64,000 bases of DNA, taken from Comamonadaceae bacterium ALPHA2B. GTDB taxonomy: Bacteria; Pseudomonadota; Gammaproteobacteria; Burkholderiales; Burkholderiaceae_C. Under the pieces are notes generated by a model. That model saw nothing but the letters and a program-made list of their open reading frames with translations, was not told where the DNA came from and ran no database searches. Position numbers and translations under genes: made by a program. The stretch spans positions 1-64,000 of the forward strand of contig SCOE01000023.1 of assembly GCA_005503065.1 (NCBI GenBank), given 5' to 3'. Shown here one piece after another: positions 32,235 through 54,876 of the stretch (positions are counted from its first letter, which is position 1; the number at the start of each line of letters is the position of its first letter).

Positions 32235-33278
32235 TCAGCGGTGCAGGTTCACCGTCTCTTCGTTCGGGATGCCCTCGATCGGCGCCTCGGCGGTGCCGAC
32301 GGTGCTGCGGGTGAAGGACTCCACCATCTCCCGCGTGCCCTCGGGGTCGGACACCCACTTGCCGTAGAAGGAATAGGGGCAGTCCGCCACGCCCTTGTCG
32401 CCCTCGCGCGAGTTGATGACGCCGGTGTAGCCGCGGTGCAGCAGCTTGAAGAGGTGGTTCTCGCTCTGCCCATTCTTGCGGAAGTCCCGGATCAGGCTCT
32501 TGGACAGGGCCGCGTACTGCACGCCCATTTCCTCCTCGCCGCATTCGCCCAGGGTGCGGCCGTCGAAGCCGATCAGCGCCGAATGCCCGAAGTACGAGTA
32601 CACGCCGTCGAAGCCGCTGGCGTTGGCCACCGCCACGTACACGTTGTTGGCGAAGGCCATGGCCTTGCTGATGAGGATCTGCTGTTCCTTGGCCGGGTAC
32701 ATGTAGCCCTGGCAGCGCACGATCAGCTCGGCACCCTTCATGGCGCAGTCGCGCCAGATCTCGGGGTAGTTGCCGTCGTCGCAGATGATGAGGCTGATCT
32801 TCAGGCCCTTGGGGCCCTCGCTGACGTAGGTGCAGTTGCCGGGGTACCAGCCCTCGATGGGCACCCAGGGCATGATCTTGCGGTACTTCTGGACGATCTC
32901 GCCCTGGTCGTTCATGAGGATCAGGGTGTTGTACGGCGCCTTGTCGGGATGCTCCTCGTGGCGCTCGCCGGTGAGCGAGAACACGCCCCACACCTTGGCC
33001 TTGCGGCAGGCCTCGGCAAAGATCTCGGTCTCGAATCCCGGCACGCTGGCTGCGTTCTCGTACATCTCGGCACTGTCGTACATGATCCCGTGCGTGCTGT
33101 ACTCGGGGAAGATCACCAGGTCCAGCCCCGGCAGGCCGGCCTTCATGCCGACCACCATGTCGGCGATCTGCTTCGCGTTCGCGAGCACCTCGGCCCGCGT
33201 ATGCAGGCGCGGCATCTTGTAATTGACGACGGCGACGCCGACGGTGTCCTTGCTGCTGGAAATGTCGCCGTGGATCAT
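32235..33278 (-). CDS. amiE: Aliphatic amidase
   Basis: A 347-residue nitrilase-superfamily enzyme that hydrolyses short aliphatic amides to carboxylic acid and ammonia. It is nearly colinear with Pseudomonas AmiE ([27 protein letters not shown]). The catalytic triad is in the canonical positions: E59 in FPEYS, K134 in YRKI and C166 in [10 protein letters not shown]. It heads an operon with the AAA+ and VWA genes. Upstream, a TACGT-N6-ACGTA palindrome (33340-33355) is shared with the urtA promoter region, indicating co-regulation with urea/amide uptake. Confidence 0.96.
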
Positions 33279-33339: not shown

Positions 33340-33355
33340 TACGTTGATTGACGTA
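33340..33355. promoter_or_regulatory. Palindrome TACGT-N6-ACGTA upstream of amiE
   Basis: On the minus strand it reads TACGTCAATCAACGTA, 15 of 16 bases identical to the plus-strand site at 43881-43896. It ends 62 bases before the amiE start codon. The most likely binder is the LuxR-type response regulator encoded at 47393; this is inference. Confidence 0.65.
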
Positions 33356-35431: not shown

Positions 35432-37114
35432 ATGAGCCTCGAGACCCTCACCACCGACGTCCTGATCGTCGGCGCCGGCCCGGTCGGCCTGACCCTCGCG
35501 ATGGACCTCGCCTCGCGCGGTGTCCGCGTCACCCTCGCCGAGACGCGCCACCGCGGCGAGCCGCCCAACGTCAAGTGCAACCACGTGTCGGCCCGCACGA
35601 TGGAGCAGTTCCGCCGCCTGGGCGTCGCTGCCCAGGTGCGCGCAGCCGGGCTGCCGGCCGACCATCCCAACGACGTCGTCTTCCGCACCACCTTCACCGG
35701 GCAGGAACTCACGCGCATCCCGATCCCCAGCCGGCGCGAGCGCTACACCGCCACCGGCGGTCCCGACACCTGGTGGCCGACGCCCGAGCCGCCGCACCGC
35801 ATCAACCAGATCTACCTCGAGCCCATCCTGCTGGAACACGCCGCGAGCCGACCGGGCGTGACGTTGCTCAGCCGCACCCAGGTGCTGGGCTTCGAGCAGG
35901 ACGCCGACGGCGTGACGGCGACCGCGCTCGGCCTGGACGACGGCAGCACGCGCACGCTGCGTGCACGCTACCTGGTCGGCTGCGACGGCGGCAGTTCGAT
36001 GGTGCGCAAGGCCATGGGCGCACAGCTGGCCGGCACGCCGGTGATCCAGCGCGTGCAGTCCACCTACATCCGCGCGCCGGGGCTGCGCGAGCGCACGAAG
36101 GGCACCGACGCCTGGTGCTGCTACGCCGTCAACCCGCGGCGTTGCGGCACCGTGTTCACCATCGATGGCGGCGACCGCTGGCTGGTGCACAACCACCTCA
36201 ACCCGCACGAGCCGGAGTTCGACTCGGTGGACCGCGATGCCTCGATCCGCGAGATCCTGGGCGTGGAGGCCGACTTCCACTACGAGGTCATCAGCAAGGA
36301 GGACTGGGTGGGGCGGCGGCTGGTGGCCGATCGCTTCCGCGCCGGCCGCGTGTTCATCGCCGGCGATGCCGCGCACCTGTGGGTGCCCTACGCGGGCTAC
36401 GGCATGAACGCCGGCATCGCCGACGCCGTCAACCTCGGCTGGCTCCTCGGCGCGTGCCTGCAGGGCTGGGCCGATGAGGCCATCCTGGACGCCTACCAGG
36501 CCGAGCGGCAGCCCATCACCGAGCAGGTGTCGCAGTTCGCGATGGAGCACGCGCAGAAGATGATCCGCGCGCGCGGCGCCGTGCCGCCCGATCTGGAAGC
36601 ACCGGGGCCCGAAGGCCAGACGCTGCGCGAGGCCGTGGGCCGCGAAGCCTACGAACTCAACGTGCAGCAGTTCTGCTGCGCGGGCCTGAACTTCGGGTAC
36701 TTCTACGAGGGCTCGCCCATCATCGCCGCCGACGGCGAGGCGCCGCCGCCCTACACCATGGGCGGCTTCACGCCGTCCACGGTGCCGGGCTGCCGGGCAC
36801 CGCACGTCTGGCTGGCCGACGGGCGCTCGCTCTACGACGCCTTCGGCCCCGGCTACACGCTGCTGCGCCGCGACCCGTCGGCCGACGTCGCGCCGCTGCA
36901 GGCGGCCGCGCAGGCCGTCGGCATGCCGCTGGCGCTGGTCGACGCCACGACGGACGAACTGCCGGCCGAGGCCGGCTACCGGCACCGCCTGATCCTGTGC
37001 CGGGCCGACCAGCATGTGGCCTGGCGCGGCGACCGACTGCCCGGCGATGCAGGCGCCCTGGTCGCACGGCTGTGCGGACGGGCCGAGGCCCGCATACCGG
37101 CCCTCAGTGACTGA
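35432..37114 (+). CDS. FAD-dependent aromatic hydroxylase (PheA/TfdB-like)
   Basis: A 560-residue group A flavoprotein monooxygenase. VLIVGAGPVGLTLAMDLASRGVRVTLAE is the Rossmann motif, ARYLVGCDGGSSMVRKAMG is the DG motif and GRVFIAGDAAHLWVPYAGYGMNAGIADAVNLGWLLGA is the GD motif. Residues after about 420 form the thioredoxin-like C-terminal domain of phenol-hydroxylase-type enzymes. It is 25 bases downstream of the receptor gene. It probably hydroxylates a phenolic or heterocyclic compound with NAD(P)H. The gene overlaps the convergent fmdB end by 11 bases. Confidence 0.88.
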   Translation: MSLETLTTDVLIVGAGPVGLTLAMDLASRGVRVTLAETRHRGEPPNVKCNHVSARTMEQFRRLGVAAQVRAAGLPADHPNDVVFRTTFTGQELTRIPIPSRRERYTATGGPDTWWPTPEPPHRINQIYLEPILLEHAASRPGVTLLSRTQVLGFEQDADGVTATALGLDDGSTRTLRARYLVGCDGGSSMVRKAMGAQLAGTPVIQRVQSTYIRAPGLRERTKGTDAWCCYAVNPRRCGTVFTIDGGDRWLVHNHLNPHEPEFDSVDRDASIREILGVEADFHYEVISKEDWVGRRLVADRFRAGRVFIAGDAAHLWVPYAGYGMNAGIADAVNLGWLLGACLQGWADEAILDAYQAERQPITEQVSQFAMEHAQKMIRARGAVPPDLEAPGPEGQTLREAVGREAYELNVQQFCCAGLNFGYFYEGSPIIAADGEAPPPYTMGGFTPSTVPGCRAPHVWLADGRSLYDAFGPGYTLLRRDPSADVAPLQAAAQAVGMPLALVDATTDELPAEAGYRHRLILCRADQHVAWRGDRLPGDAGALVARLCGRAEARIPALSD

Positions 37115-37445
37115 TCATCCAGGGCCGCTTCGAAGGGAAGGCCTTGGCGCCGCTGGGCGCCGTCACCGTCGCCTTGCTGCGGCCCGGGCTGCAGCAGCCG
37201 CATCCGGCCGGGTGGCGCAGCCGCTGGTAGTCGCGTGAGCTCTTGGGCTCGTGCCGCGCGCGCTCGTTGACGTCCATCGCGCGCCGCGTGCCGCCGTCGA
37301 GCAGCGCCAGCCGCGGCGCGCTCGCCAGCACCCGCGGCGAGGGGGTGGCGCACACCGGGCAGGCCGCGGGCTCGTTGCGCTGGCCCATGCTGCGGAAGGC
37401 ATCGAAGCCCCCGCAGTCGGCGCATTCGTACTCGTAGGCCGGCAT
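37104..37445 (-). CDS. fmdB: FmdB-family zinc-ribbon protein
   Basis: A 113-residue protein with the N-terminal FmdB zinc ribbon MPAYEYECADCGGFDAFRSMGQRNEPAACPVCATPSPRVL (two CxxC pairs). The C-terminal part has an extra cysteine group GCGCCSPGRS that is less conserved. It is the last gene of the urtABCDE-fmdA-fmdB series, one base after fmdA, as in Methylophilus, where FmdB was described as a regulator of formamidase expression. Its molecular role is not established. Confidence 0.9.
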   Translation of the reverse strand: MPAYEYECADCGGFDAFRSMGQRNEPAACPVCATPSPRVLASAPRLALLDGGTRRAMDVNERARHEPKSSRDYQRLRHPAGCGCCSPGRSKATVTAPSGAKAFPSKRPWMISH

Positions 37446-37446
37446 C

Positions 37447-38676
37447 TCAGAGCAGGTCCGGCGAGAGCGGCATGTCGATGCTGCCGTCGAGGAACTTCGT
37501 CGGCCCGGCGGCGCTCGGGTTGATGTCGAAGTCGAAGATCTGCGTCGGCAGCCACAGCGTGGCGCAGGCGTTGGGCACGTCGACCACGCCGCTGATGTGG
37601 CCCTGCACGGGCGCCGTGCCGAGGATCGAGTAGGCCTGCGCGCCCGAATAGCCGAACTTCTTCAGGTACTCGATGGCGTTGAGGCAGGCCTGGCGGTAGG
37701 CCACGTTGACGTCGAGGTAGTACTGCTTGCCGCTCTCGTCGACGCTGATGCCCTCGAAGATCACGTAGTCGTCGTAGACCGGCTTGATCGGGCTGGGTTT
37801 GAAGATCGGGTTCTTGATGCCGTACTTGGCCATGCCGCCCTTGATGATCGACACCTTCATGTGCACCCAGCCGGCCATCTCGATGGCGCCGCAGAAGGTG
37901 ATCTCGCCGTCGCCCTGGCTGAAGTGCAGGTCGCCCACCGACAGGCCCGCGCCCTCGACGTACACCGGGAAGAAGATCTTCGAGCCGCGCGACAGGTCCT
38001 TGATGTCGCAGTTGCCGCCGTGCTCGCGCGGCGGCACGGTGCGCGCGCCGGTGGCCGCCGCCTTGGCCTTGGCCTCGCCCGTGAGCTTGCCCATGTGCGC
38101 CGTGCCGGCGAAGGGCGGGTTGGCCAGGCCGCTGGTGGCCGGGTCGGAATCGATCAGCGCCTGCTCGCGCGTGTTCCACACCTCCAGCATCTTGGGGTCG
38201 GGCAGGCAGCCGATCAGGCCGGGGTGGATCAGGCCCGCGTACTTCACGCCCGGCACATGGCGCGAGGTGGTGAACATGCCGTGGAAGTCCCAGATCGACT
38301 TCTGCGCCTGCGGGAAATGTTCGGTCAGGAAGCCGCCGCCGTTCTTCTTGCTGAAGAAGCCGTTGAAGCCCCAGAGGCTGTCGTCCTTGGCACCGATGTC
38401 CAGCAGGTCGACCACCAGCAGGTCGCCGGGCTCGGCGCCCTTCACGCCCACCGGGCCGCTGAGGTAGTGCACCGTGGTCAGGTCGATGTCGCGCACGTCG
38501 TCGGCGCTGTCGTTGTTCTTGATGAAGCCGCCGGTCCAGTCGTAGGTCTCCAGCACGAAGTCGTCGCCCGGGTTCACCCAGCAGGCCATCGGGATGTCCG
38601 GATGCCAGCGGTTGTGCACCAGCTCGTTGCTGGGCGCGGGCTGAGAAAGATCGACCTTGATCAGGGTGTCGGGCAT
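37447..38676 (-). CDS. fmdA: Formamidase
   Basis: A 409-residue enzyme of the acetamidase/formamidase family that hydrolyses formamide to formate and ammonia. MPDTLIKVDLSQPAPSNELVHNRWHPDIPMACWVNPGDDFVLETYDWTGGFIKNNDSADDVRDIDL is the conserved family N-terminus, and GDLHFSQGDGEITFCGAIEMAGWVHMKVSIIKGG carries the central signature. Start ATG 38676 follows CAGGAGCC. It lies between urtE and fmdB, so formamide imported by the Urt-type transporter is hydrolysed by the same operon's product. Confidence 0.96.
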   Translation of the reverse strand: MPDTLIKVDLSQPAPSNELVHNRWHPDIPMACWVNPGDDFVLETYDWTGGFIKNNDSADDVRDIDLTTVHYLSGPVGVKGAEPGDLLVVDLLDIGAKDDSLWGFNGFFSKKNGGGFLTEHFPQAQKSIWDFHGMFTTSRHVPGVKYAGLIHPGLIGCLPDPKMLEVWNTREQALIDSDPATSGLANPPFAGTAHMGKLTGEAKAKAAATGARTVPPREHGGNCDIKDLSRGSKIFFPVYVEGAGLSVGDLHFSQGDGEITFCGAIEMAGWVHMKVSIIKGGMAKYGIKNPIFKPSPIKPVYDDYVIFEGISVDESGKQYYLDVNVAYRQACLNAIEYLKKFGYSGAQAYSILGTAPVQGHISGVVDVPNACATLWLPTQIFDFDINPSAAGPTKFLDGSIDMPLSPDLL

Positions 38677-38723: not shown

Positions 38724-39425
38724 TCAGACCGAGAGGTAGGCCTTGATGTGGGCCTCGTCGGTCTTGTCGCGGGCGGTCTCGTGCACCAGGCGGCCGCCCT
38801 CGATGACGAAGAGGCGGTCGGCCACGTCCATCGCGAAGGACAGCACCTGCTCCGACACGACGATGGTGATGCCCTTCATGCGCCGGATCTCGTTGAGGGC
38901 GCGCGCGATGTCCTTGATGATGGAAGGCTGGATGCCCTCGGTCGGCTCGTCCAGCAGCAGCACCTTGGGTTCGGTGACCAGCGCGCGCGCGATGGCCAAC
39001 TGCTGCTGCTGGCCGCCCGAGAGGTTGCCGCCCTTGCGCCGCTTCATGTCGAAGAGCACCGGGAAGAGCGCGTAGATCTCCTCGGGAATGCGGCGGGTCT
39101 TGCTGTTCTCCAGCCCGGTCTGGATGTTCTCTTCCACCGTCAGCGTCGGGAAGATCATGCGGCCCTGCGGCACGTAGGCGATGCCCTTGGCCACGCGGCG
39201 GAAGCTCTCGTCCTTCGTCACGTCCTGGCCGGCCACCTCGATGCGGCCGCTCTTGACCGGCAGCACGCCCATGAGCGACTTGAACAGCGTCGTCTTGCCC
39301 ATGCCGTTGCGGCCCATGATGGCCACCGTCTCGTTGGCCATGCCCTCGAAGGACACGCCGTGCAGCGCCTCGCTCTGGCCATAGGCCACGTGCAGGTCCT
39401 CGACCTTCAGCATCACGTTGCTCAT
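38724..39425 (-). CDS. urtE: Urea/short-amide ABC transporter ATP-binding protein UrtE
   Basis: A 233-residue LivF-type ATPase: Walker A GRNGMGKTT, Q-loop VPQGRMIFP, signature LSGGQQQQLAIARAL, Walker B VLLLDEPTEGIQPSII and VVSEQVLSFA. The segment MLKVEDLHVAYGQSEALHGVSFE is typical of UrtE. It is separated from urtD by a single base, with coupled translation. Together with UrtD it energises import of urea or short amides. Confidence 0.95.
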   Translation of the reverse strand: MSNVMLKVEDLHVAYGQSEALHGVSFEGMANETVAIMGRNGMGKTTLFKSLMGVLPVKSGRIEVAGQDVTKDESFRRVAKGIAYVPQGRMIFPTLTVEENIQTGLENSKTRRIPEEIYALFPVLFDMKRRKGGNLSGGQQQQLAIARALVTEPKVLLLDEPTEGIQPSIIKDIARALNEIRRMKGITIVVSEQVLSFAMDVADRLFVIEGGRLVHETARDKTDEAHIKAYLSV

Positions 39426-39426
39426 G

Positions 39427-40170
<744 letters not shown>

Positions 40171-40190
40171 GGGATTGGCTCTCCAGCGTC

Positions 40191-41396
40191 TCAGGCGCCC
40201 TGCCCGCTCATGCCTTCGGGCAGATCGGCGGCGGGCTTCTTGCCCTCGCGCGGCGGCAGCGCCTCGGGGTAGGCGGCGTGGGCGGCGGCCACGCGCTCGG
40301 CATCGGCCTTGCGCTCCATGCGGCTGCGCTTCCACCAGGGCTTGATCTTCTCGTCCCACAGGCCCGCCAGGCCCATGGGGAAGGCCATGGTCACGCCGAT
40401 GAACAGGCCCGCCATGAGGAAGAGCCACAGGTCCGGAAAGCTCTCCGAGAAGAGCGTCTTCCCGGCGTTGACCAGCAGCGTGCCGTACACCGCGCCCACC
40501 AGGCTCATGCGCCCGCCCACGGCCGCGAAGATGACCATCTCGATCGAGGGCACGATGCCCACGAAGCTGGGCGACATGAAGCCCACCTGCAACGCGAACA
40601 TCGCGCCGCCGATGCCCGACAGGCCGGCCGCCAGGCAGAAGGTGAAGACCTTGAAGTTCGACACGTCGTAGCCCGAGAAGCGCACCCGGTCCTCCTTGTC
40701 GCGCATGGCCAGCAGCAGCGTGCCGAGCTTGCTGGTCTGGATCCACCGGCACAGCACGATCGAGCCGATCAGCAGCGCCACGCAGACGAAGTAGAGGATG
40801 TACTTTGCGCTGTCGGTGCGCGTGTCCCAGCCCAGCAGCGTCTTCAGGTCGGTCATGCCGTTGACGCCGCCGGTGTAGCCCTGCTGGCCGATGATGAGCA
40901 CGGTACAGATCAGCGCCACCGCCTGCGTGATGATGGCGAAGTAGACCCCGCCCACGCGCCGCTTGAACATCGCGAAGCTGATCAGCCAGGCCAGCGCCAT
41001 CGGCACCAGCACCACCGCCAGCAGCGCCAGCGGCAGGCTCTTGAAGGGCACCCAGAAGGCCGGCAGCGAGGTGATCTGGTTCCAGTCCATGAAGTCGGGG
41101 ATGCCCGGCGTGGACTGGATCTTGGTGCTCTCGGGGTCCGAGGCCTCGAGCTTGAGGAACATCGCCATCGCGTAGCCGCCCAGGCCGAAGAACACGCCCT
41201 GCCCGAGGCTCAGCACGCCGCCGTAGCCCCACACCATCACCAGCCCGACGGCGACGAAGGCATAGCACAGGTACTTGCCCACCAGATTGAGGCGGAAGAT
41301 GTCCAGCGTGAGCGGTAGCACCATCACGAGCAGCAGGGTGAGCAGCAGCAGGCTGCCGAGCTGGTAGCGCTTGATCAGGGCCTTGAGGGAGTCCAT
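40191..41396 (-). CDS. urtC: Urea/short-amide ABC transporter permease UrtC
   Basis: A 401-residue LivM-type inner-membrane permease. LCYAFVAVGLVMVWGYGGVLSLGQGVFFGLGGYAMAMFLKLEA is the UrtC hallmark, and the coupling loop is CRWIQTSKLGTLLLAMRDKEDRVRFSGYDVSNFKVF. A cytoplasmic C-terminal tail of about 50 residues rich in charge and alanine (KRSRMERKADAERVAAAHAAYPEALPPREGKKPAADL) is usual for UrtC. It lies between urtB (24 bases) and urtD (20 bases). Confidence 0.95.
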   Translation of the reverse strand: MDSLKALIKRYQLGSLLLLTLLLVMVLPLTLDIFRLNLVGKYLCYAFVAVGLVMVWGYGGVLSLGQGVFFGLGGYAMAMFLKLEASDPESTKIQSTPGIPDFMDWNQITSLPAFWVPFKSLPLALLAVVLVPMALAWLISFAMFKRRVGGVYFAIITQAVALICTVLIIGQQGYTGGVNGMTDLKTLLGWDTRTDSAKYILYFVCVALLIGSIVLCRWIQTSKLGTLLLAMRDKEDRVRFSGYDVSNFKVFTFCLAAGLSGIGGAMFALQVGFMSPSFVGIVPSIEMVIFAAVGGRMSLVGAVYGTLLVNAGKTLFSESFPDLWLFLMAGLFIGVTMAFPMGLAGLWDEKIKPWWKRSRMERKADAERVAAAHAAYPEALPPREGKKPAADLPEGMSGQGA

Positions 41397-41420: not shown

Positions 41421-42335
41421 TCAGCGGCGGACCTTGGAGGCGAACAGCCCTTGCGGACGCATCATCAGGATGAGCACGATCAGCGAGAGCGTCAGCACCT
41501 TGGCCATCGAGCCGGTCATGAAGAACTCCGAGATCGACTGCGTCTGGGCGATGCCGAAGGCCGAGACCACGGTGCCCAGCAGGCTGGCGGCGCCGCCGAA
41601 GGTCACGACCAGGAACGAATCGACGATGTACAGCTGTCCCGAGGTGGGCCCGGTGGAGCCGATGGTGGTGAAGGCCGCACCCGCCACACCGGCGATGCCG
41701 CAGCCGATGGCGAAGGTCAGGCGGTCGGTCTTCTTGGTGTCGATGCCGGTGGCGTTGGCCATGGTGCGGTTGGCCACGGTGGCGCGCACCCGCAGGCCCC
41801 AGCGGCTCTTGTGCAGGGCGATCAGCACGCCGACGGTCACGACGGCCGTCAGGGCGAGCACGAACAGGCCGTTGATCGGGATGTCGACGCCTTCCGTGGG
41901 CGCCCAGGAGCCCATCAGCCACTCGGGCAGCGTCGGGCTCACCTCCTTCGGGTTGATGAAGGTGCGGAAGCACTGCTGCAGCCCCAGGCTCACGCCCCAG
42001 GTGGCCAGGAGCGTGTCGAGCGGGCGGCTGTACAGGTGGCGGATCAGCGCCCATTCCATGAGCCAGCCGAGCGCGAAGGCCACGCCGAAGCCCAGCACGA
42101 TCGCGACCGGAAAGTAATAGGCCATGGCGCCCGGCGCGGTGCGCTCGGTGAACAGGGCCGACATGTAGACGGTGTACGCCCCGATGGCCATGAACTCGCC
42201 ATGCGCCATGTTGATGACGCCCATCTGGCCGAAGATGATCGCCAGCCCCAGGCCCATGAGCAGCAGCACCGCGAAGAGCGAAAGCCCCGCGAAGCCCTGC
42301 ATGAGGCCAATGTTGAGCATGTCGGAGAGGGTCAT
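41421..42335 (-). CDS. urtB: Urea/short-amide ABC transporter permease UrtB
   Basis: A 304-residue LivH-type permease. GLMQGFAGLSLFAVLLLMGLGLAIIFGQMGVINMAHGEFMAIGAYTVYM is typical UrtB, and HKSRWGLRVRATVANRTMANATGIDTKKTDRLTFAIGCGIAG is the coupling loop. The mature length shows no long periplasmic N-terminal domain of the kind found in some UrtB proteins annotated in other phyla. The 170-base gap to urtA contains a dispersed repeat (family B) but no promoter that I can identify. Confidence 0.95.
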   Translation of the reverse strand: MTLSDMLNIGLMQGFAGLSLFAVLLLMGLGLAIIFGQMGVINMAHGEFMAIGAYTVYMSALFTERTAPGAMAYYFPVAIVLGFGVAFALGWLMEWALIRHLYSRPLDTLLATWGVSLGLQQCFRTFINPKEVSPTLPEWLMGSWAPTEGVDIPINGLFVLALTAVVTVGVLIALHKSRWGLRVRATVANRTMANATGIDTKKTDRLTFAIGCGIAGVAGAAFTTIGSTGPTSGQLYIVDSFLVVTFGGAASLLGTVVSAFGIAQTQSISEFFMTGSMAKVLTLSLIVLILMMRPQGLFASKVRR

Positions 42336-42411: not shown

Positions 42412-42512
42412 CGGGGACACCCACGGAACCGGCTTTGCCGGGCCGTAGGGTGTGCCCCCTTGAGGGGGTAAGGGCTCGCCGCAGGCGAGCCAAACGGGGG
42501 TGGGCTTACTGA
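42412..42512 (+). repeat. Dispersed repeat, family B copy 1, between urtB and urtA
   Basis: Shares GGAAC-CGGCTTTGCC-GGCC-GGGTG-GCCCCCTT blocks with the reverse complement of 59500-59592. After the C/G hairpin (CCCCCTTGAGGGGG) it carries a second hairpin GGCTCGCC-GCA-GGCGAGCC. Its last bases overlap the urtA stop codon region. It occupies most of the urtA-urtB gap and could attenuate or process the transcript between receptor and permease genes. Confidence 0.7.
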
Positions 42513-43768
42513 TATCCCTTGGGGAACGGGTCCGGCTTGATCAGGTCCGGCGACTCGGCCACCACCTTGAAGGTGCCGTCCAGCTGCCCTTGGGCGATGC
42601 GCGACTTGCTCCACAGGTGGTGGTTGGCGTCCAGCTTCACGTAGCCCTCGGGCGCCGTCTTGAGCTCGATGCCGGGCGATGCGGCCACCACCTTGTCGAC
42701 GTCGAAGCTGCCGGCCTTCTCCACCGCGGCCTTCCACAGCCAGGGGCCGAGGTAGCCGGCCTGCGTCACGTCGCCGATCACCGCGTCCTTGCCGTACTTG
42801 GCCTTGAAGGCCTCCACGAACTTCTTGTTGTTCGCGTTGTCCAGCGTCTGGAAATACTTCATCGACGAGTAGAAGCCGGCGAAGTTCTCGCCGCCCACGC
42901 CGGTCATCTCGTCCTCGGTGACCGACAGCGTCAGCAGGAACTGCTTGTCGCCGGTGATGCCGGCGGCCTTGAGCTGCTTGTAGAAGGCCACGTTCGAGCC
43001 GCCCACCACCGCCGCGAAGATGCAGTCGGGCTTGGCGACCTTGATCTTGTTGATCAGCGAGTTGAAGTTGGTGTGGCCCAGCGGGTAGTACTCCTCGCCC
43101 TTCACGCTGCCGAGCTTGCCCACGGTCTCGATGTGCTTGCGCGCGATCTTCATCGAGGTGCGCGGCCAGATGTAGTCCGAACCGACCAGGAAGAAGGTCT
43201 TGGCCTTCTTCTCCTTCGCGCCCCAGTCCAGGCCGTAGATGATCTGCTGCGTGGCCTCCTGGCCCGTGTAGATCACGTTCTTGCTCTGCTCCAGGCCTTC
43301 GTAAAAGGTGGGGTAGTACAGCAGGCCGTTCTCCTTCTCGAAGACGGGCAGCACCGCCTTGCGCGAGGCGCTGGTCCAGCAGCCGAAGACGCAGGCCACC
43401 TTGTCGTTGACCAGGAGCTTCTTGCTCTTCTCGGCGAAGGTCGGCCAGTCGGAGGCGCCGTCTTCCTTGATGACCTTGATCTTGCGCCCCAGGATGCCGC
43501 CCATGGCGTTGATCTGGTCGATCGCGAGCTGCTCGGCCTGGATGGAGCCGGTTTCCGAGATGGCCATGGTGCCCGAGGACGAATGCAGCTGGCCCACGGT
43601 GACTTCGGTGTCGGTCACCGCCAGCTTGGTGGTGTTGACCTTGGCGGTCGGCGGGGTCTGGCCGAAGGCCAGGCCGCCCAGGCCCATCACGGGCAGGGCC
43701 GCCGCGCCCTGCAGCAGCCGGCGGCGGCGCAGCGCGAGGAGGTCGGAGGGGTCTTGGGGTCGGGACAT
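42506..43768 (-). CDS. urtA: Urea/short-amide ABC transporter substrate-binding protein UrtA
   Basis: A 420-residue receptor. RRRRLLQGAAALPVMGLGGLAFGQT is a twin-arginine export signal; the mature part VTDTEVTVGQLHSSSGTMAISETGSIQAEQLAIDQINAMGGILGRKIKVI is the UrtA/FmdD signature. ATG 43768 follows CTGGAGCC; an open frame continues upstream but lacks a signal. It leads urtABCDE-fmdA-fmdB and is divergent from the permease-kinase gene. In Methylophilus the equivalent FmdD binds short amides and urea, which fits fmdA downstream. Confidence 0.94.
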   Translation of the reverse strand: MSRPQDPSDLLALRRRRLLQGAAALPVMGLGGLAFGQTPPTAKVNTTKLAVTDTEVTVGQLHSSSGTMAISETGSIQAEQLAIDQINAMGGILGRKIKVIKEDGASDWPTFAEKSKKLLVNDKVACVFGCWTSASRKAVLPVFEKENGLLYYPTFYEGLEQSKNVIYTGQEATQQIIYGLDWGAKEKKAKTFFLVGSDYIWPRTSMKIARKHIETVGKLGSVKGEEYYPLGHTNFNSLINKIKVAKPDCIFAAVVGGSNVAFYKQLKAAGITGDKQFLLTLSVTEDEMTGVGGENFAGFYSSMKYFQTLDNANNKKFVEAFKAKYGKDAVIGDVTQAGYLGPWLWKAAVEKAGSFDVDKVVAASPGIELKTAPEGYVKLDANHHLWSKSRIAQGQLDGTFKVVAESPDLIKPDPFPKGYQ

Positions 43769-43880: not shown

Positions 43881-43896
43881 TACGTCATTCAACGTA
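43881..43896. promoter_or_regulatory. Palindrome TACGT-N6-ACGTA between urtA and the kinase gene
   Basis: TACGTCATTCAACGTA lies 113 bases from the urtA start and 127 bases from the kinase start. The amiE promoter has the same palindrome with one base changed (33340-33355). It is a good candidate operator for the response regulator encoded downstream of the kinase. Confidence 0.65.
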
Positions 43897-44022: not shown

Positions 44023-47000
44023 ATGCAACCCCTTTCCGGCCAGAAGATCTTCCGCATCCGGCGCGACTACAACACCTGGGTCGCGAACGAGACGCTGGAG
44101 GACTACGCCCTGCGCTACACGCCGCGCAGCTTTCGCAAGTGGTCGGAGTTCCGCGTGGCCAACGCCGCCTTCGGCGCCACCTCCTTCCTGGCGCTGGAGG
44201 CGATCGGCGGCGCCATCGCCCTGTCGTACGGCTTCTCCAACGCGGTCTGGGCCATCCTGGTGGTGGGCCTCATCACCTTCCTCACCGGGCTGCCGATCTC
44301 GTACTACGCGGCCCGGCACGGCGTGGACATGGACCTGCTCACCCGCGGCGCGGGCTTCGGCTACCTCGGCTCGACCATCACCTCGCTGATCTACGCGAGC
44401 TTCACCTTCATCTTCTTCGCGCTGGAGGCGGCCATCCTCGCGCTGGCGCTGCAGATGTACCTGGACTGGCCGCTGCCGGTGCTGTACCTGGCCTCGTCGC
44501 TGGTCATCATCCCGCTGGTGATGCGCGGCATCACGCTGATCTCGGGCCTGCAGCTGTGGAGCCAGCCGATCTGGATCGTGCTGTTCTTCCTGCCCTTCCT
44601 GGCGGTGCTGGCGAAGAACCCGCAGCTGTATGCCGACTTCACCAGCCTCGTGGGGCGCGTGTCGGGCAGCAGCGGCTTCGACCCGTTGATGTTCGGCGCC
44701 GGCGCCACCGTGGCCTTCGCGCTGGTGGTGCAGATCGGCGAGCAGGTCGACTACCTGCGCTTCCTGCCCGAGAAGACGGCCGCCAACCGCGGGCGCTGGT
44801 GGGCCGCGGTGCTGATCGCCGGCCCGGGCTGGATCGTCCCGGGCATGCTCAAGATGCTGGGCGGCGCCTTCCTGGCCTTCCTCGCGCTGCAGCACGAGAT
44901 CCCGGCGGAGCACGCCGTCGAGCCCACCCGCATGTACCTGGCCGGCTTCGCCTACGTGCTGAAGGACCCGGCCACGGTGATGGCGGTCACCACGCTCTTC
45001 GTGGTCGTCTCGCAGATGAAGATCAACCTGACCAACGCCTACGCCGGCTCGCTGGCCTGGTCGAACTTCTTCGCCCGCCTGACGCACAGCCACCCGGGGC
45101 GCGTGGTGTGGCTGGTCTTCAACGTGCTGATCGCCGTGCTGCTGATGACGCTGGGCGTGTTCGGCGCGCTGGAGAAGGTGCTGGGCCTGTACAGCAACAT
45201 CGCCATCGCCTGGGTCGGCGCGCTGGTGGCCGACCTGGTCATCAACAAGCCGCTGGGCTTCAGCCCAAAGGTGATCGAGTTCAAGCGGGCGCACCTGTAC
45301 GACATCAATCCGGTCGGCCTGGTGGCCACGGTGGTGGCGGCCGGACTGGCGATGGTGGCCTACGCCGGCCTGCTCGGGCACTGGGCCGCCGCGTTCTCGC
45401 CCTTCATTGCGCTGGCGACGGCACTGCTGGTGTCGCCCCTGCTGGCCTGGCGCACGCGCGGGCGCTACTACCTGGCCCGGCAGGACCTGCAGCACTGGAC
45501 GCCGGGCCAGAGCGTGACCTGCCATGTGTGCGACAACCGCTTCGAGGCCGAGGACATGGCCTTCTGCCCGGCCTACAGCGCGCCGATCTGCTCGCTGTGC
45601 TGCACGCTCGAGTCGCGCTGCCACGACCGCTGCAAGACCGACTCGCGCGCCGCCGAACAGATCAGCGGCTGGCTGCAGGCGCTGTTGCCCGCCCGGCTGT
45701 CGGCGCGCCTGAACTTCCGCGTGGCCCATTACCTGGTGGTGGCCTTCTCGCTGGTCGCGCTGCTGGCCACCATCATGGGCATCGTCTACGCGCAGGAGTT
45801 GATCGGCGCCGGCGGCATGCCCAACGAGGCCCTGCGCACGCCCTTCCTCAAGGTCTTCGCGCTGCTGTCGCTGGTGGCGGCGGTGGCCGCGTGGTGGGTG
45901 GTGCTGGGCAGCGAGAGCCGCCACATGGCCCAGGAGGAGTCCAACCGCCACAACCACCTGCTGACGGTGGAGATCGAGGCCCACCAGCGCACCGACGCCG
46001 CGCTGCAGGCCGCCAAGGAGGCGGCCGAGGCGGCCAACCAGGCCAAGACGCGCTACGTGGCCGGCATGACGCACGAGCTGCGCACGCCGCTCAACAGCAT
46101 CCTGGGCTATTCGCAGATCCTGCTCAAGTCGGAACCGGCCGCCGCCACGCCGGCCTCGGTGCACGGCGCCGTGCAAACCATCCACCGCAGCGGCGAGCAC
46201 ATGCTGGGCCTGATCGACGGCCTGCTCGACCTGGCGCGCATCGAGGCCGGCCGCCTGCAGCTGGAGCCGGCGCCGCTGGCGCTGCCGGCCTTCCTGGACG
46301 AACTGGTGCGCATGGTGCGCCCGCAGGCCGAGAACAAGGGCCTCGCCTTCGTCTACACCCACCTGGGCCGGCTGCCGGACTGGGTGCAGGCCGATGCCAA
46401 GCGCCTGCGGCAGATCCTCATCAACCTGCTGGCCAACGCGGTGCGCTTCACCGAGGCCGGCACCGTCACGCTGCAGGTGGATGCGCGGCGCGAGGTGCTG
46501 CGCTTCGACGTCATCGACACCGGGCCTGGCGTCGCGCCGCAGGACCGCCAGCGCATCTTCCTGCCCTTCGAGCGCGGCAGCGTCGGCCGGCGCGCGGGCG
46601 AGCCGGGCACCGGGCTGGGCCTCACGATCACCGGCCTGCTCACCTCGCTGATGGGCGGCGAGCTCGCGCTGGCCGACAGCTCCAGCCGCGGCAGCACCTT
46701 CAGCGTGCGCATCTATCTGCGCGAGGTGGCCGACCCCGGCCCGCAGGCCGAGCCGCAGCGGCCCATCTCGGGCTATTTCGGCCCGCGCCGCACGCTGCTG
46801 GTGGTGGACGACCAGCCCGTGCAGCGCCAGATGCTGGCCGGCCTGCTCATGCCCCTGGGCTTCGACGTGCGCGAGGCCGCCAGCGGCACCGAGTGCCTGG
46901 ACAGCCTGCGCGACCACCAGCCCTCGGCCATCCTGCTGGACCTGAGCATGGACGACATGAACGGCTGGGACACCGCGCGCCACGTGCGCGCCGCCGGCTT

Positions 47001-47418
47001 CGACCGGGTGCCGATCATCATCGTCTCGGCCAACGTGTTCGAGAACCAGGCCGAGCGGCTGCGCGAGGCCGGCTGCCAGGGCTTCGTGGGCAAGCCGGTG
47101 ATCGAATCCGAACTCATCGCCGCGCTCGAGCGGCACCTCGGCCTCGAATGGCTGGTGCACACCCCGGCGCCGCCGGTGCGCATGGACGCACCGCCGACGC
47201 CTGGCACCATCCCCCTGCCCGAAGAGGCGCGCGCAGAACTGCTGCAGCTCGCGCAGATCGGCCATGTGCGGGGCCTGCAGCAGGCGCTGGACCGGATCGC
47301 GGCCGAGCGGCCCGAGCTGGCCTCGGCCTGCACGCAGCTGCGCGGCCTGGTCTCCCGCTTCGAACTCGACCAACTCAGGAAAGTGATCGCCGATGACGCT
47401 GTCGCCCTCGACCTCTGA
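44023..47418 (+). CDS. NCS1 permease-fused hybrid sensor histidine kinase
   Basis: A 1131-residue membrane protein. Residues about 20-470 are a twelve-helix NCS1 (cytosine/purine/allantoin) permease-like domain (YTPRSFRKWSEFRVANAAFGATSFLALEAIGGAIALSYGF). Residues 500-537 form a cysteine/histidine cluster CHVCDNRFEAEDMAFCPAYS...CSLCC...CHDRC that may bind metal. Two more helices lead to a HisKA box THELRTPLNS (H684), an ATPase domain with N805 and DTGPGVA/GTGLGL, a receiver domain (D929-D930, phosphoacceptor D973) and a helical C-terminus. ATG 44023 gives a family-like start. It is divergent from urtA and overlaps the response-regulator gene; it probably senses or carries urea, an amide or a ureide. 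Confidence 0.9.
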   Translation: MQPLSGQKIFRIRRDYNTWVANETLEDYALRYTPRSFRKWSEFRVANAAFGATSFLALEAIGGAIALSYGFSNAVWAILVVGLITFLTGLPISYYAARHGVDMDLLTRGAGFGYLGSTITSLIYASFTFIFFALEAAILALALQMYLDWPLPVLYLASSLVIIPLVMRGITLISGLQLWSQPIWIVLFFLPFLAVLAKNPQLYADFTSLVGRVSGSSGFDPLMFGAGATVAFALVVQIGEQVDYLRFLPEKTAANRGRWWAAVLIAGPGWIVPGMLKMLGGAFLAFLALQHEIPAEHAVEPTRMYLAGFAYVLKDPATVMAVTTLFVVVSQMKINLTNAYAGSLAWSNFFARLTHSHPGRVVWLVFNVLIAVLLMTLGVFGALEKVLGLYSNIAIAWVGALVADLVINKPLGFSPKVIEFKRAHLYDINPVGLVATVVAAGLAMVAYAGLLGHWAAAFSPFIALATALLVSPLLAWRTRGRYYLARQDLQHWTPGQSVTCHVCDNRFEAEDMAFCPAYSAPICSLCCTLESRCHDRCKTDSRAAEQISGWLQALLPARLSARLNFRVAHYLVVAFSLVALLATIMGIVYAQELIGAGGMPNEALRTPFLKVFALLSLVAAVAAWWVVLGSESRHMAQEESNRHNHLLTVEIEAHQRTDAALQAAKEAAEAANQAKTRYVAGMTHELRTPLNSILGYSQILLKSEPAAATPASVHGAVQTIHRSGEHMLGLIDGLLDLARIEAGRLQLEPAPLALPAFLDELVRMVRPQAENKGLAFVYTHLGRLPDWVQADAKRLRQILINLLANAVRFTEAGTVTLQVDARREVLRFDVIDTGPGVAPQDRQRIFLPFERGSVGRRAGEPGTGLGLTITGLLTSLMGGELALADSSSRGSTFSVRIYLREVADPGPQAEPQRPISGYFGPRRTLLVVDDQPVQRQMLAGLLMPLGFDVREAASGTECLDSLRDHQPSAILLDLSMDDMNGWDTARHVRAAGFDRVPIIIVSANVFENQAERLREAGCQGFVGKPVIESELIAALERHLGLEWLVHTPAPPVRMDAPPTPGTIPLPEEARAELLQLAQIGHVRGLQQALDRIAAERPELASACTQLRGLVSRFELDQLRKVIADDAVALDL

Positions 47419-48289
47419 CGCCGAACGTCCCGTCGTCCTCGTGGTGGACGACGCGCCCAGCAGCCTGGGCATGCTGTGCGACACGCTCGAATCCAGCGGC
47501 TACACCGTGCTGGTGGCCGGCGACGGCGAGAGCGCGCTGGAGCGGCTGGAGCTGGTCGTGCCCGATGCCATCCTGCTGGACGGCATGCTGCCGGGCCTCT
47601 CGGGCTTCGACACCTGCCGGCGCATCAAGGCCAATGCGGCGCTGGCCCACATCCCGGTGCTGTTCATGACCGGCCTGTCGGAGACGCCGCACGTGGTGGA
47701 GGGCTTCGAATCGGGCGGCGTGGACTACGTGGTCAAGCCCATCCGCGCGCAGGAGGTGCTGGCCCGGCTGCACACGCACACGCGCAACGCGCGCATCACC
47801 CGCATGGCGCGCGACGCGGTCGACGTGGCGGGCATGGGCGTGGTCTTCGTCGACGCGCAGGGCCGCATCGCCTGGTTGTCGCCGCAGGCCGCCGCCTGGC
47901 TGCAGGGCCTGCCACAGGCCGCGTTGCCCGGCCACCTGCCGCCCGCCCTCGAGCCGGTGCTGCAGGGCGGCACCGAACGGCTGACCACGGCGACCGGCCA
48001 GCGCCTGTCGGCCCGCAACCTGGGCACCGCGACGCTGGGCGAGACGATGCTGCTGTTGGCGCAGGACCGCGGGCCCACCGGCGCCTCGCGCCTGGGCGAG
48101 GCCGCGCTCACCCCGCGCGAGACCGAGGTGCTGTCCTGGCTGGCCAAGGGCAAGACCAACCGCGACATCGCCGAGATCCTGGGCATGAGCCCGCGCACGG
48201 TGAACAAGCACCTGGAGCACATCTTCGAGAAGCTGGGCGTGGAGACGCGCGCTGCGGCGGCTGCACTGGCCAGCGGCCACCTGGACTGA
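47393..48289 (+). CDS. LuxR-type response regulator
   Basis: A 298-residue regulator. Residues 10-130 are a receiver (VVLVVDDAPSSLGMLCDTL, phosphoacceptor D63 in AILLDGMLPG, K in VVKPI). Residues about 135-215 resemble a small PAS-like module (GMGVVFVDAQGRIAWLSPQAAAWL). Residues 230-290 are a LuxR helix-turn-helix (LTPRETEVLSWLAKGKTNRDIAEILGMSPRTVNKHLEHIFEKLGVETR). It overlaps the kinase gene by 26 bases, so it is the cognate partner and the probable activator of urtABCDE-fmdAB and amiE. Its final codons lie in the first unit of a tandem repeat. Confidence 0.93.
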   Translation: MTLSPSTSDAERPVVLVVDDAPSSLGMLCDTLESSGYTVLVAGDGESALERLELVVPDAILLDGMLPGLSGFDTCRRIKANAALAHIPVLFMTGLSETPHVVEGFESGGVDYVVKPIRAQEVLARLHTHTRNARITRMARDAVDVAGMGVVFVDAQGRIAWLSPQAAAWLQGLPQAALPGHLPPALEPVLQGGTERLTTATGQRLSARNLGTATLGETMLLLAQDRGPTGASRLGEAALTPRETEVLSWLAKGKTNRDIAEILGMSPRTVNKHLEHIFEKLGVETRAAAAALASGHLD

Positions 48290-49258: not shown

Positions 49259-49702
49259 TCAGTAGGTCTTGTAGGGCAGGAATTTGCCCGAGAGCACCAC
49301 GTTCACGCGGTCGCCCTTGGGATCGGGCTCGCGCACGATGTCCATCTTGAAGTCGATGGCGCTCATGATCCCGTCGCCGAACTCCTCGTGGATCAGCTCC
49401 TTGATGGTGGTGCCATAGACGCTGACGATCTCGTACCAGCGGTAGATCAGCGGATCGGTGGGCACGGCCGTGGGCAGCGAGCCCTTGTACGGCACCACCT
49501 GCAGCCACTTCTGTTCCTCGGCGTCGAGGCCGAAGATCTCGCCGACCACCTGGGCCTGCTCGGCGTCGAGGGTCATCTGGCCCAGGCAGGCGGCCGTGAC
49601 CCATTCCTTGGACAGGCCCACCTTCGTGGCCACGTCGGCCCACTGGATGCCCTTGGCCACCTTGGTGCCAATGATTTTCTCGGTAACGTCGTTGCGGTTC
49701 AT
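49259..49702 (-). CDS. cynS: Cyanase (cyanate hydratase)
   Basis: A 147-residue enzyme that converts cyanate and bicarbonate to carbon dioxide and carbamate, which decays to ammonia. The catalytic residues R88, E91 and S114 have the same spacing as R96/E99/S122 of the E. coli enzyme (in YRWYEIVSVYG and MSAIDFKMD). The N-terminal helix-turn-helix-like domain KGIQWADVATKVGLSKEWVTAACLGQMTL is present. ATG 49702 follows AAGGAGTGCTTTCC. It is the last gene of the nitrate/cyanate-type ABC transporter operon. Confidence 0.97.
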   Translation of the reverse strand: MNRNDVTEKIIGTKVAKGIQWADVATKVGLSKEWVTAACLGQMTLDAEQAQVVGEIFGLDAEEQKWLQVVPYKGSLPTAVPTDPLIYRWYEIVSVYGTTIKELIHEEFGDGIMSAIDFKMDIVREPDPKGDRVNVVLSGKFLPYKTY

Positions 49703-49741
49703 GGAAAGCACTCCTTGTTGTGCGGGGGTCAATGGAAGGCC

Positions 49742-50557
49742 TCAGGCGGCGTGCGCCCGGGTGACGAGGAAATCGACGATGTGGTTGCGCAGCTCGTAGT
49801 AGCCGGGCATGTGGTGCAGCGTGCCGCGGGTGCGCTCGCGCGGCAGCTCGATGCGAAGCGTCTCGGCGATGCCGCCGGGCCGCCAGCCGCCGCCGGGCAG
49901 TGCCACGCCGTTGCGCATCATCAGCACGCGGTCGGCCAGCAGGATGGCCTCGTCCACGTCGTGCGTGATCATGAAGACGGTCTGCTGCGTGCGCCGCACG
50001 ATGGCCACCAGTTCGTCCTGGATGGTGCCGCGGGTGAGCGCATCCAGCGCGCCGAAGGGCTCGTCGAGCAGCAGCATCTTCGGCTCGATGGCGAAGGCGC
50101 GCGCGATGCCCACGCGCTGCTTCATGCCGCCCGAAAGTTCGGAAGGCTTCTTGTCCAGCGCCGCGGACAGGCCGACCATCGCCACGTACTTCTCGACATG
50201 CGCAGCCACCTCGGCGCGGCGCCAGTCGGGCCGGCGCGATTCGACGGCGAAGGCGATGTTGCGCCGCACCGTGAGCCAGGGCAGCAGCGCGTGGCTCTGG
50301 AACACCACGCCCCGCTCCAGGCTGGGGCCGGCGACTTCGCGGCCGTCCATGAACACATGGCCGGCGCTGGCACGGTCGAGGCCGGCGAGCACGTTGAGGA
50401 TGGTCGTCTTGCCGCAGCCGGAGTGCCCGATGATGCAGACGAACTCGCCGCGCGCGACGTCGAAGTCGACGTCCGCGAACACCGGGCGGTCGGCCTGGAA
50501 GGACCGCGCCAGGCCCTGGACGCGAAGGAATTCCGGCGAAGGGGTCGACGCAGTCAT
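49742..50557 (-). CDS. Nitrate/cyanate-type ABC transporter ATP-binding protein
   Basis: A 271-residue ATPase of the NrtD/CynD/TauB group. Walker A GHSGCGKTT, Q-loop FQSHALLPWLTVRRNIAF, signature LSGGMKQRVGIARAF, Walker B MLLLDEPFGALDALTR and switch histidine MITHDVDEAI are intact. A C-terminal segment MPGYYELRNHIVDFLVTRAHA is typical of NrtD. ATG 50557 is preferred; ATG 50596 would overlap the permease gene. With cynS immediately downstream, cyanate is the likely substrate. Confidence 0.92.
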   Translation of the reverse strand: MTASTPSPEFLRVQGLARSFQADRPVFADVDFDVARGEFVCIIGHSGCGKTTILNVLAGLDRASAGHVFMDGREVAGPSLERGVVFQSHALLPWLTVRRNIAFAVESRRPDWRRAEVAAHVEKYVAMVGLSAALDKKPSELSGGMKQRVGIARAFAIEPKMLLLDEPFGALDALTRGTIQDELVAIVRRTQQTVFMITHDVDEAILLADRVLMMRNGVALPGGGWRPGGIAETLRIELPRERTRGTLHHMPGYYELRNHIVDFLVTRAHAA

Positions 50558-50585
50558 CGTGGCCCCGGGCGATGCGTTGCCATGT

Positions 50586-52822: not shown

Positions 52823-52928
52823 GGAGGCTCCTCGGGCATTGGAAGAGCCCGTGCCATGCAACGTGCGGGCCTGTTCGGCGCCGATGCGACGTTCGCACGA
52901 CAAATCGTGCAGCGCCCGTCGAGGCCGT

Positions 52929-54842: not shown

Positions 54843-54876
54843 GGGCAGGGAACATGCAACCGACATGCCACGGCGT

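Follow-up and report, generated by a model that had tools for sequence, protein, structure and literature searches.

Several sensor kinases in which a membrane transporter is joined to a signalling enzyme have been described. CbrA of Pseudomonas, the best-studied analogue, combines an SLC5 transporter of the LeuT fold with STAC and PAS domains and a histidine kinase, acts through a regulator of another type, the NtrC-like CbrB, and has a global carbon role. CbrA binds and transports histidine in a proton-driven manner that is not stimulated by sodium, and its kinase works without the SLC5 domain (PMC7096432); it also carries a Lys in its Na2 site (PMC13022988). Ks-Amt5 of Kuenenia is a trimeric ammonium transporter of the Amt fold joined to DHp and CA domains only, which responds to a different ligand and lost transport when it became a kinase sensor (PMC5764959). 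The NCS1 carriers Mhp1 and CodB are stand-alone, Na+-coupled carriers of hydantoins and cytosine. NarL and NarP are response regulators with a receiver and a GerE output domain whose operator is an inverted 7-2-7 repeat beginning TAC. In Ectopseudomonas guguanensis, genes of a LuxR-type two-component regulator are placed with urtABCDE operon III and a hybrid histidine kinase is listed in the legend of Figure 6, without mention of an NCS1 domain, operator or ligand in the text consulted (PMC13296017).

An NCS1-type permease fused to a hybrid histidine kinase

We analysed a window of 64,000 nucleotides (positions 1 to 64,000 of contig SCOE01000023.1 of Comamonadaceae bacterium ALPHA2B, assembly GCA_005503065.1). 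A sequence-only reading had proposed that one protein joins a full NCS1-type permease, a Cys/His-rich cluster, a histidine kinase, an ATPase, a receiver and a helical C-terminus, is followed by a LuxR-type regulator, and lies opposite urtABCDE-fmdAB. This observation was confirmed, and the features of the locus are as follows.

44023..47418 (+), NCS1-permease/hybrid histidine kinase fusion, one ATG-started frame of 1131 aa
44023..45456 (+), NCS1-like permease domain (residues 1-478), with pocket candidates F55, F131, E135, Q237, E240 and N338, and K333 at the aligned Na2 position
44185..44199 (+), TM1 signature F55-x-x-L58-E59 of the fused form (stand-alone permeases mostly read Y-x-x-D-F/Q)
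45520..45633 (+), 8-Cys cluster (residues 500-537), probable zinc ribbon, the metal being inferred
45715..45912 (+), two further helices taken as TM (about residues 565-630; boundaries set by eye on the AF2 secondary structure), running into the kinase helix
46042..46251 (+), HisKA (residues 674-743), phospho-acceptor His684
46393..46719 (+), HATPase_c (residues 791-899)
46798..47127 (+), C-terminal receiver domain (Response_reg, residues 926-1035), Asp973
47140..47415 (+), C-terminus (about residues 1040-1131) without a recognised domain
47393..48289 (+), response regulator of 298 aa, receiver plus LuxR/NarL-type HTH (GerE), predicted to bind the operator and overlapping the fusion gene by 26 bp
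43881..43896 (no strand assigned), putative operator TACGTCATTCAACGTA between urtA and the kinase
33340..33355 (no strand assigned), second copy of the putative operator, TACGTCAATCAACGTA on the minus strand, about 60 bp before the amiE start
42506..43768 (-), urtA, amide-type clade (start re-assigned by sequence reading downstream of the long ORF start; the operator lies upstream)
41421..42335 (-), urtB
40191..41396 (-), urtC (named by position and homology)
39427..40188 (-), urtD (start approximate; named by position and homology)
38724..39425 (-), urtE
37447..38676 (-), fmdA, formamidase
37104..37445 (-), gene for an fmdB-type zinc ribbon protein
32235..33278 (-), amiE, aliphatic amidase, with its own copy of the putative operator

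The permease assignment does not come from a direct family match. Pfam found the HisKA, HATPase_c and Response_reg domains that make this protein a hybrid histidine kinase, but no family with E <= 1 in residues 1-640, and PF02133 hit only 1 of 44 aligned family members (8.6e-8). A PDB sequence search with the family profile also gave nothing. In contrast, comparison with hhalign against 14 ordinary NCS1 proteins gave a probability of 98.8 and an E-value of 4.9e-17 over 389 columns, and an AF2 model of residues 1-665 (pLDDT 85.5, pTM 0.84) had Mhp1 and CodB as its five best PDB matches in a Foldseek search, at 17-18% identity. We therefore regard residues 1-480 as a divergent NCS1 permease with a predicted LeuT fold, rather than the SLC5 and STAC domains of CbrA and CrbS, although the lack of a Pfam match between residues 1 and 640 speaks to STAC only if Pfam holds such a model. 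The Na2-site Ser312 and Thr313 of TM8 of Mhp1, which bind Na+, align with Met332 and Lys333, and this Lys was invariant in 175 of 175 sequences. No Pfam family, Hpt included, matched the C-terminus at E <= 1. The 8-Cys pattern was present in 159 of 159 fused proteins checked, with C500, C503, C523 and C526 invariant in 44 of 44 sequences of the family alignment.

The possibility that the joint is a chimeric assembly artefact, set beforehand as a test, was excluded: in 77 of the 80 best relatives the N-terminal and kinase halves share one frame, and in the other three the contig ends before the kinase. UrtA, UrtB, UrtE, FmdA and FmdB passed NCBIfam cut-offs, and the divergent urtABCDE-fmdAB operon is as first described. 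UrtA scored 520.7 against a curated cut-off of 492.75 (TIGR03407), but a second UrtA, 68% to a urease-linked UrtA, is the likelier urea carrier.

Amide and urea genes, the putative operator and stand-alone relatives

Relatives were sampled within Pseudomonadota apart from hits in a plasmid collection. Of the phylum-sample places with enough flank, 53 of 53 lay near formamidase/amide-type urt or urease/canonical urt genes, as did 12 of 17 fusions in a class sample, while 0 of 20 random 20-kb windows from eleven of the same genomes held FmdA, AmiE, UrtA or urease genes. The five class-sample fusions without such neighbours (loci L107, L108, L115, L116 and L121) also lacked the operator upstream; L107 and L115 carry other kinase types by eye, and L116 shows no match to this kinase. 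An Acinetobacter pair and an Arthrobacter stand-alone permease beside biotin-type genes likewise showed no amide or urea gene. Stand-alone permeases were found in front of fmdA and amiE, in place of urtABCDE, in 6 loci, beside fmdA-fmdB on Moraxella pNP7-1, and in 7 urease operons, where they follow urease genes, so that urea or a short amide is the likeliest ligand. In the ALPHA2B genome a second copy of the kinase, which the sequence-only reading had missed, lies beside the only full urease match; as this match is not at the present locus, we dropped a reading of the operon as serving urea only. Conserved linkage to cyanate genes was rejected, with CynS near 3 of 80 relatives.

A palindrome, TACG-N8-CGTA, also missed in the sequence-only reading together with amiE as a second target, was found between urtA and the kinase in 107 of 117 loci exactly and in 114 of 117 with at most one mismatch, against 0.56 on average in base shuffles. 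A scan of non-redundant loci gave 60 of 78, a count that did not include the window itself, where the long urtA ORF covers the site. In the ALPHA2B genome the palindrome occurs 8 times, 3 of them at the kinase/urtA, amiE and canonical urtA promoters. Only its location is telling, since the strict pattern was not in excess genome-wide (13 forward against 44 for a reversed-pattern control in 13 genomes), 7 of 15 strict sites in 14 genomes lay elsewhere, and 7 of the 13 further genomes had no strict site. With up to 3 mismatches the pattern was not in excess in the window (8 matches, 12 expected), where only the two exact sites count. Beside urease-type kinases the site was mostly missing (2 of 23 exact, 9 of 23 with at most one mismatch), as it was in 6 of 6 stand-alone urease cases and upstream of the second kinase copy. 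The site was present at 8 of 21 amiE genes scored as having their own promoter and at 0 of 38 scored as operonic; the former class is too wide, as 12 of its 13 members without a site have amiE behind urtE or fmdA/B in the same direction.

The variants of the palindrome covary with the recognition helix of the LuxR-type regulator: residue 271 is Asn in 68 of 68 readable regulators with TACGT operators and in 2 of 11 with TACGC operators, although the regulators of the latter type are partly related to each other, so that this does not represent many independent events. We also looked for sigma-54 promoters in the 117 intergenic regions, and found the strict pattern in 0 towards urtA and 2 towards the kinase, and a loose pattern in 7 and 6 against 7.5 in shuffles. 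In contrast, an NtrC-like pattern (GCAC-N4-6-GGTGC) was found in 24 and 15 of 117 against 0.84 in shuffles, and nitrogen control by NtrC in addition remains possible.

Comparison of fused and stand-alone permeases revealed a near-fixed difference in TM1. Residue 58 is Asp in 15 of 16 stand-alone permeases and Leu in 153 of 158 fused ones, with Leu58-Glu59 in place of Asp58-Phe/Gln59, and residue 341 is Ala in 159 of 159 fused against Ser in 16 of 16 stand-alone forms. Pocket residues E135, N338, Q237 and E240 are the same in both forms. The Cys cluster belongs to the permease module, not to the kinase, as 15 of 16 stand-alone permeases end with it, 7 in full and 8 as a 4-Cys form. In a tree of 103 of 180 permease sequences, from which truncated sequences and near-copies were dropped, amide and urea neighbours needed at least 7 changes; these labels were set by the nearest marker gene, with one locus assigned to urea by hand. 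The tree is a single quick search rooted on a sequence with a very long branch, such that the placement of fused forms on one side of a branch holds without the root but the direction of change does not.

A predicted receptor for urea and short amides

We suggest that this protein is a receptor made from a transporter, a reading to which we assign a probability of about 0.7. In this view the NCS1-fold half binds urea or a short-chain amide (formamide, acetamide) in the old substrate pocket, and occupancy would shift the helices, passing through the membrane-proximal Cys module (probably zinc) and the two extra TM helices into the DHp helix to set autophosphorylation of His684. Phosphate would go to the attached receiver and to the adjacent LuxR/NarL-type regulator, which as a dimer would bind TACGTCA-N2-TGACGTA between urtA and the kinase and in front of amiE, and a variant in front of canonical urtA, switching on uptake and hydrolysis of amides and urea. 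The heptamer TACGTCA of the proposed operator and the link to amide and urea genes would set this regulator apart from NarL and NarP, whose operator has the same inverted 7-2-7 arrangement. The architecture, homology, genomic coupling, palindrome and covariation are established by sequence, whereas the ligand, the direction of control, DNA binding by the regulator, the probable loss of coupled transport and the zinc are inferred. The earlier interpretation, that flux or binding of an NCS1 ligand (urea, allantoin or a pyrimidine) is read directly as a nitrogen signal, was partly supported: the fusion, its tie to amide and urea genes and a ligand plausibly read through the permease pocket hold up, but, judging by the recurring neighbours, urea or short amides fit the neighbourhoods whereas allantoin and pyrimidine do not, and the reading of flux is not favoured.

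The alternative that the permease half still imports its ligand and that the kinase reads the transport cycle appears doubtful but is the strongest of the rivals. Transport by CbrA shows that loss of transport is not the rule, and the alignment of invariant K333 with a Na2-site residue of Mhp1, where CbrA also has a Lys, and the shared pocket residues are compatible with such a transceptor. However, the TM1 change and A341 in the fused clade suggest a receptor that no longer couples transport, Ks-Amt5 provides a precedent for such loss, and many fusions already sit beside a dedicated ABC transporter or stand-alone permease, so import by the fusion is not needed. It is unlikely that the permease is only an anchor, with cytoplasmic nitrogen state or the Cys cluster (as a metal or redox sensor) as the real input. 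The independence of the CbrA kinase from its SLC5 domain, the conservation of eight Cys and the nickel requirement of urease are consistent with this view, but the Cys cluster travels with the permease and the pocket residues are invariant in 175 of 175 sequences, more than an anchor needs.

A nucleobase, allantoin or hydantoin ligand, with the urea genes merely serving its breakdown, is very unlikely. The nearest solved structures are the hydantoin and cytosine carriers, public annotation calls a stand-alone relative "allantoin permease", and a distant stand-alone lies among hydrolase/amidase-like genes by eye. However, the recurring neighbours are formamidase, aliphatic amidase, urt and urease, an argument that does not show the absence of allantoin or pyrimidine catabolic genes, and Mhp1 Trp117 and Gln121 align with Phe131 and Glu135. 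We also consider it improbable that the palindrome is the site of another regulator, such as NtrC or a LysR protein, and that the kinase does not control these genes. The absence of the site beside most urease-type kinase copies and the NtrC-like pattern, which indicates that other regulators do act in these regions, favour this view; against it, the palindrome occurs with the kinase-regulator pair from Variovorax-type genomes to a Klebsiella plasmid, its T/C variants follow the recognition helix, and strict sigma-54 patterns are nearly absent.

Implications for urea and amide sensing

A broader hypothesis, which we consider only somewhat more likely than not, is that these proteins form a widespread, undescribed class of urea/short-amide receptors: an NCS1-type carrier lineage specific for urea and amides, fused once to a kinase, that lost its TM1 coupling Asp and thereby became a sensor, while its unfused sisters still serve as the urea or formamide permease. 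We found no paper on this system in the literature searched, and sequence databases do not record such a role; transporter-kinase fusions are already known, and what differs here is the NCS1 permease, the Cys module with two extra helices and the link to amide and urea genes. If true, this would give both a new bacterial urea/amide carrier family and a residue-level record of a transporter turning into a receptor, with its own operator and regulon. How bacteria sense urea and simple amides outside the cell is, in our judgement, poorly known, and the model proposes a receptor, regulator, operator and regulon for many Pseudomonadota at once, some on Klebsiella plasmids; on the one examined, the pair is labelled ArcB and CzcR. 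The stand-alone form is a candidate urea/formamide permease, and the fused and unfused members of one permease family offer a natural comparison for the question of what turns a transporter into a receptor.

Architecture of the fusion protein and its occurrence in other genomes

The two genes at the centre of this analysis are located in the window as follows:
44023-47418 (+), frame starting with ATG and encoding the 1131-residue fusion protein
47393-48289, regulator gene overlapping the preceding frame

Pfam recognises HisKA, HATPase_c and a receiver in the fusion protein but no family with E <= 1 in residues 1-640, thus the NCS1 permease proposed in the sequence-only reading is not a plain database match. 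Of 44 aligned relatives only one hits PF02133, and a profile built from this alignment found no PDB chain by sequence. In contrast, profile-profile comparison with 14 ordinary NCS1 proteins gave a probability of 98.8% and an E value of 4.9e-17 over 389 columns. An AF2 model of residues 1-665 (pLDDT 85.5, pTM 0.84) had Mhp1 (three entries) and CodB (two chains) as its five best PDB matches, followed by other LeuT-fold carriers. The helices of the model, counted by eye, fit a 12-helix carrier, followed by a small strand-rich module over a Cys cluster and two more helices, the last of which runs on into the kinase helix.

The fusion is not an assembly artefact. A scan of named genomes returned at least 559 loci encoding a relative, of which the best 80 were kept. 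In 77 of these 80 the permease and kinase halves are in one frame (two of these, L042 and L048, and L012 are cut late by a contig end), whereas in loci L030, L049 and L072 the contig ends before the kinase. In samples of the window's class, phylum and family, 18 of 369, 52 of 398 and 139 of 250 genomes, respectively, match the N-terminal half; of the 18, one (genome G120) is only a distant 26% match and one (genome G279) is unfused. Among the PLSDB plasmids 531 of 72,556 records match, 342 of them from Klebsiella. In locus L285, on Klebsiella pneumoniae plasmid OW970223.1, the system (a gene annotated formamidase, urtABCDE, kinase, regulator and putative operator) is annotated with ArcB, CzcR and branched-chain amino acid carrier names, although the "formamidase" there matched AmiE (37%) rather than FmdA in our scan.

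Genomic neighbourhood and stand-alone permeases

In the 80 nearest loci UrtA is near in 75, the regulator in 73 and FmdA in 61, but these are close relatives and some contigs end early. The phylum sample is fairer, and from it we retrieved 56 places (L166-L221), leaving out the window's own genome and genome G107. Two of these lie on contigs too short to judge (L191 and L220) and one is an unfused, distant NCS1 protein (L221). All 53 others have, within about 9-10 kb on each side, either the amide cluster (urtA of the window's type and/or fmdA; 37 places) or urease genes and/or urtA of the canonical type (16 places); in one of the 53 (L218) the C-terminal part gave no match to this kinase. In the class sample 12 of 17 fusions with enough flank have such neighbours (two more, L118 and L119, had too little flank), although one of the 12, the second kinase of L110, is 10 kb from urtA with the first kinase between them; the two fusion kinases of this genome (L110, on contig C1 of genome G249) are 9.5 kb apart. 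The remaining five (L107, L108, L115, L116 and L121) do not. In L107, L115 and L116 the same permease-Cys module is joined to other kinase types (by eye NtrB-like in L107 and PAS-PAS in L115) with no amide/urea neighbours, and L116 lies near RuBisCO- and CbbQ-like genes, also labelled by eye. Of 20 random 20-kb windows from eleven of the same genomes, none holds FmdA, AmiE, UrtA or urease genes. On a tree of 103 permease domains the amide/urea label needs at least 7 changes: the kinase has been placed beside one or the other kind of nitrogen operon repeatedly, which is hard to explain by hitch-hiking.

The window's own genome encodes two fusion kinases. The second, on contig C66, lies divergently beside ureA-ureJ-ureB-ureC, the only full urease match in the genome (a weak partial match was seen on contig C5). 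A canonical urtABCDE, with a UrtA 68% to a urease-linked UrtA, is located on contig C48. The window's own "urt" set is thus best read as an amide-type carrier, though it passes the NCBIfam UrtA cut-off. Further genes in the window are:
29834-32222, genes behind amiE labelled by eye as CbbQ- and CbbO-like (AAA+ ATPase and partner); tblastn finds the CbbQ-like one in 10 of 80 relative loci
49259-52903 (-), cyanase and, by eye, a nitrate/cyanate-type ABC transporter; CynS is near the kinase in only 3 of 80 relatives, so linkage looks recent
52970-55040, a further two-component pair outside the conserved cluster, by eye a PAS-type kinase and a LuxR-type regulator

We also identified 17 unfused permeases, of which 16 were compared with the fused form after leaving out the distant L221. 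In six loci (L111, L273, L275, L282, L283 and L284) an unfused permease stands where urtABCDE usually stands, divergent from the fusion kinase and in front of fmdA and amiE. On Moraxella osloensis pNP7-1 one, annotated as allantoin permease, is divergent from fmdA-fmdB. In seven loci (L122 and L276-L281) one follows the urease genes; the one in L281 is only a partial frame and is not among the 16. The exceptions are a more distant permease among genes labelled by eye as hydrolase/amidase-like (L274), one in Arthrobacter beside biotin-type genes (L287), and one in Acinetobacter divergent from a fusion without amide genes (L288). The distant NCS1 protein of L221 (28%; contig C40 of genome G544) sits before genes that by eye are nitrilase-type amidase, AmiC-like and AmiR-like, a further NCS1-amide link. 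The replacement of a whole ABC transporter by this permease is the strongest hint that its ligand is urea or a short amide.

Pocket, TM1 and Cys module of fused and unfused forms

By alignment, Mhp1 Gln121 corresponds to E135, Trp117 to F131, Asn318 to N338 and Thr313 to K333; in Mhp1 these residues bind substrate or Na+. E135, K333, N335, N338, Q237, E240, Q241 and D243 are invariant in 159 fused and 16 unfused sequences. A Lys in the Na2 site is reported for CbrA (PMC13022988). Fused and unfused forms differ at fixed places: residue 58 is Leu in 153 of 158 fused and Asp in 15 of 16 unfused, residue 59 is Glu in 158 of 158 against Phe/Gln, residue 55 is Phe in 158 of 158 against Tyr in 15 of 16, and residue 341 is Ala in 159 of 159 against Ser in 16 of 16. 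Many fused sequences are near-copies, hence these counts are not independent events. We interpret the differences as loss of the coupling residue in the putative receptor lineage. Ks-Amt5 is a precedent for a kinase-fused transporter that lost transport (PMC5764959), and CbrA for one that kept it (PMC7096432).

The 8-Cys pattern is present in 159 of 159 fused proteins; in the same check a narrow H-box pattern matched 132 of 159 and a G2-box pattern 150 of 159, some frames being cut or of other kinase types. The cluster also closes 7 of the 16 unfused permeases in full, and 8 in a 4-Cys CxxC...CxxC form, whereas L287 lacks it, as does L221. It is part of the permease module and not a kinase sensor domain, and is inferred to be probably zinc-binding.

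The putative operator and the regulator's recognition helix

The urtA-kinase intergenic regions of 117 loci share the pattern TACG-N8-CGTA, which is exact in 107 and present with at most one mismatch in 114 (65 of 75 and 72 of 75, respectively, after thinning), whereas base shuffles give 0.56 of 117 on average and 3 at most. Random windows hold 3 sites in 398 kb. The consensus, TACGTCA-N2-TGACGTA, is a 7-2-7 inverted repeat. An NtrC-like pattern in the same regions is also far above shuffles (24 and 15 of 117 against 0.84), so general nitrogen control may be layered on top. Two copies of the putative operator are located in the window:
43881-43896, between urtA and the kinase
33340-33355, before amiE

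The 6.0-Mb genome contains 8 sites, 3 of them at kinase/urtA, amiE and canonical urtA, and the stricter TACGT-N6-ACGTA occurs twice, both in the window. In 13 other genomes the strict form occurs 13 times in 6 genomes: 4 at kinase/urtA, 1 at amiE, 1 at canonical urtA and 7 elsewhere, one of these inside a urtA gene. This total is not above a reversed-pattern control (44 in the same 13 genomes), and it is the location rather than the number of sites that counts. The site precedes canonical urtA in 8 of 14 loci and the stand-alone permease of amide operons in 6 of 7 loci (5 exact, and L283 with one mismatch). In contrast, it is weak beside urease-type kinases (2 of 23 exact, 9 of 23 with at most one mismatch, and none by the second kinase copy of the window's genome) and absent in 6 of 6 stand-alone urease cases.

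Loci with TACGT...ACGTA sites have Asn at recognition-helix position 271 of the regulator in 68 of 68 readable cases (11 were unreadable) and His276 in 64. Loci with TACGC...GCGTA have Asn271 in only 2 of 11 (Asp in 6, Thr in 3) and His276 in 0 of 11, while of three mixed loci two read Asp and one was unreadable. The matching position of NarL touches DNA.

Literature searches returned no paper on an NCS1-kinase fusion, in a library that lacks most subscription journals. One paper places a LuxR-type two-component regulator with a urtABCDE operon in Ectopseudomonas and lists a hybrid kinase in a figure legend (PMC13296017). The observation made in the sequence-only reading, that an NCS1-type permease and a hybrid kinase are joined in one protein, stands. 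The best reading is that the protein is a urea/short-amide receptor derived from an NCS1 carrier, with its own NarL-type regulator and operator, in which the ligand and the direction of control are inferred.
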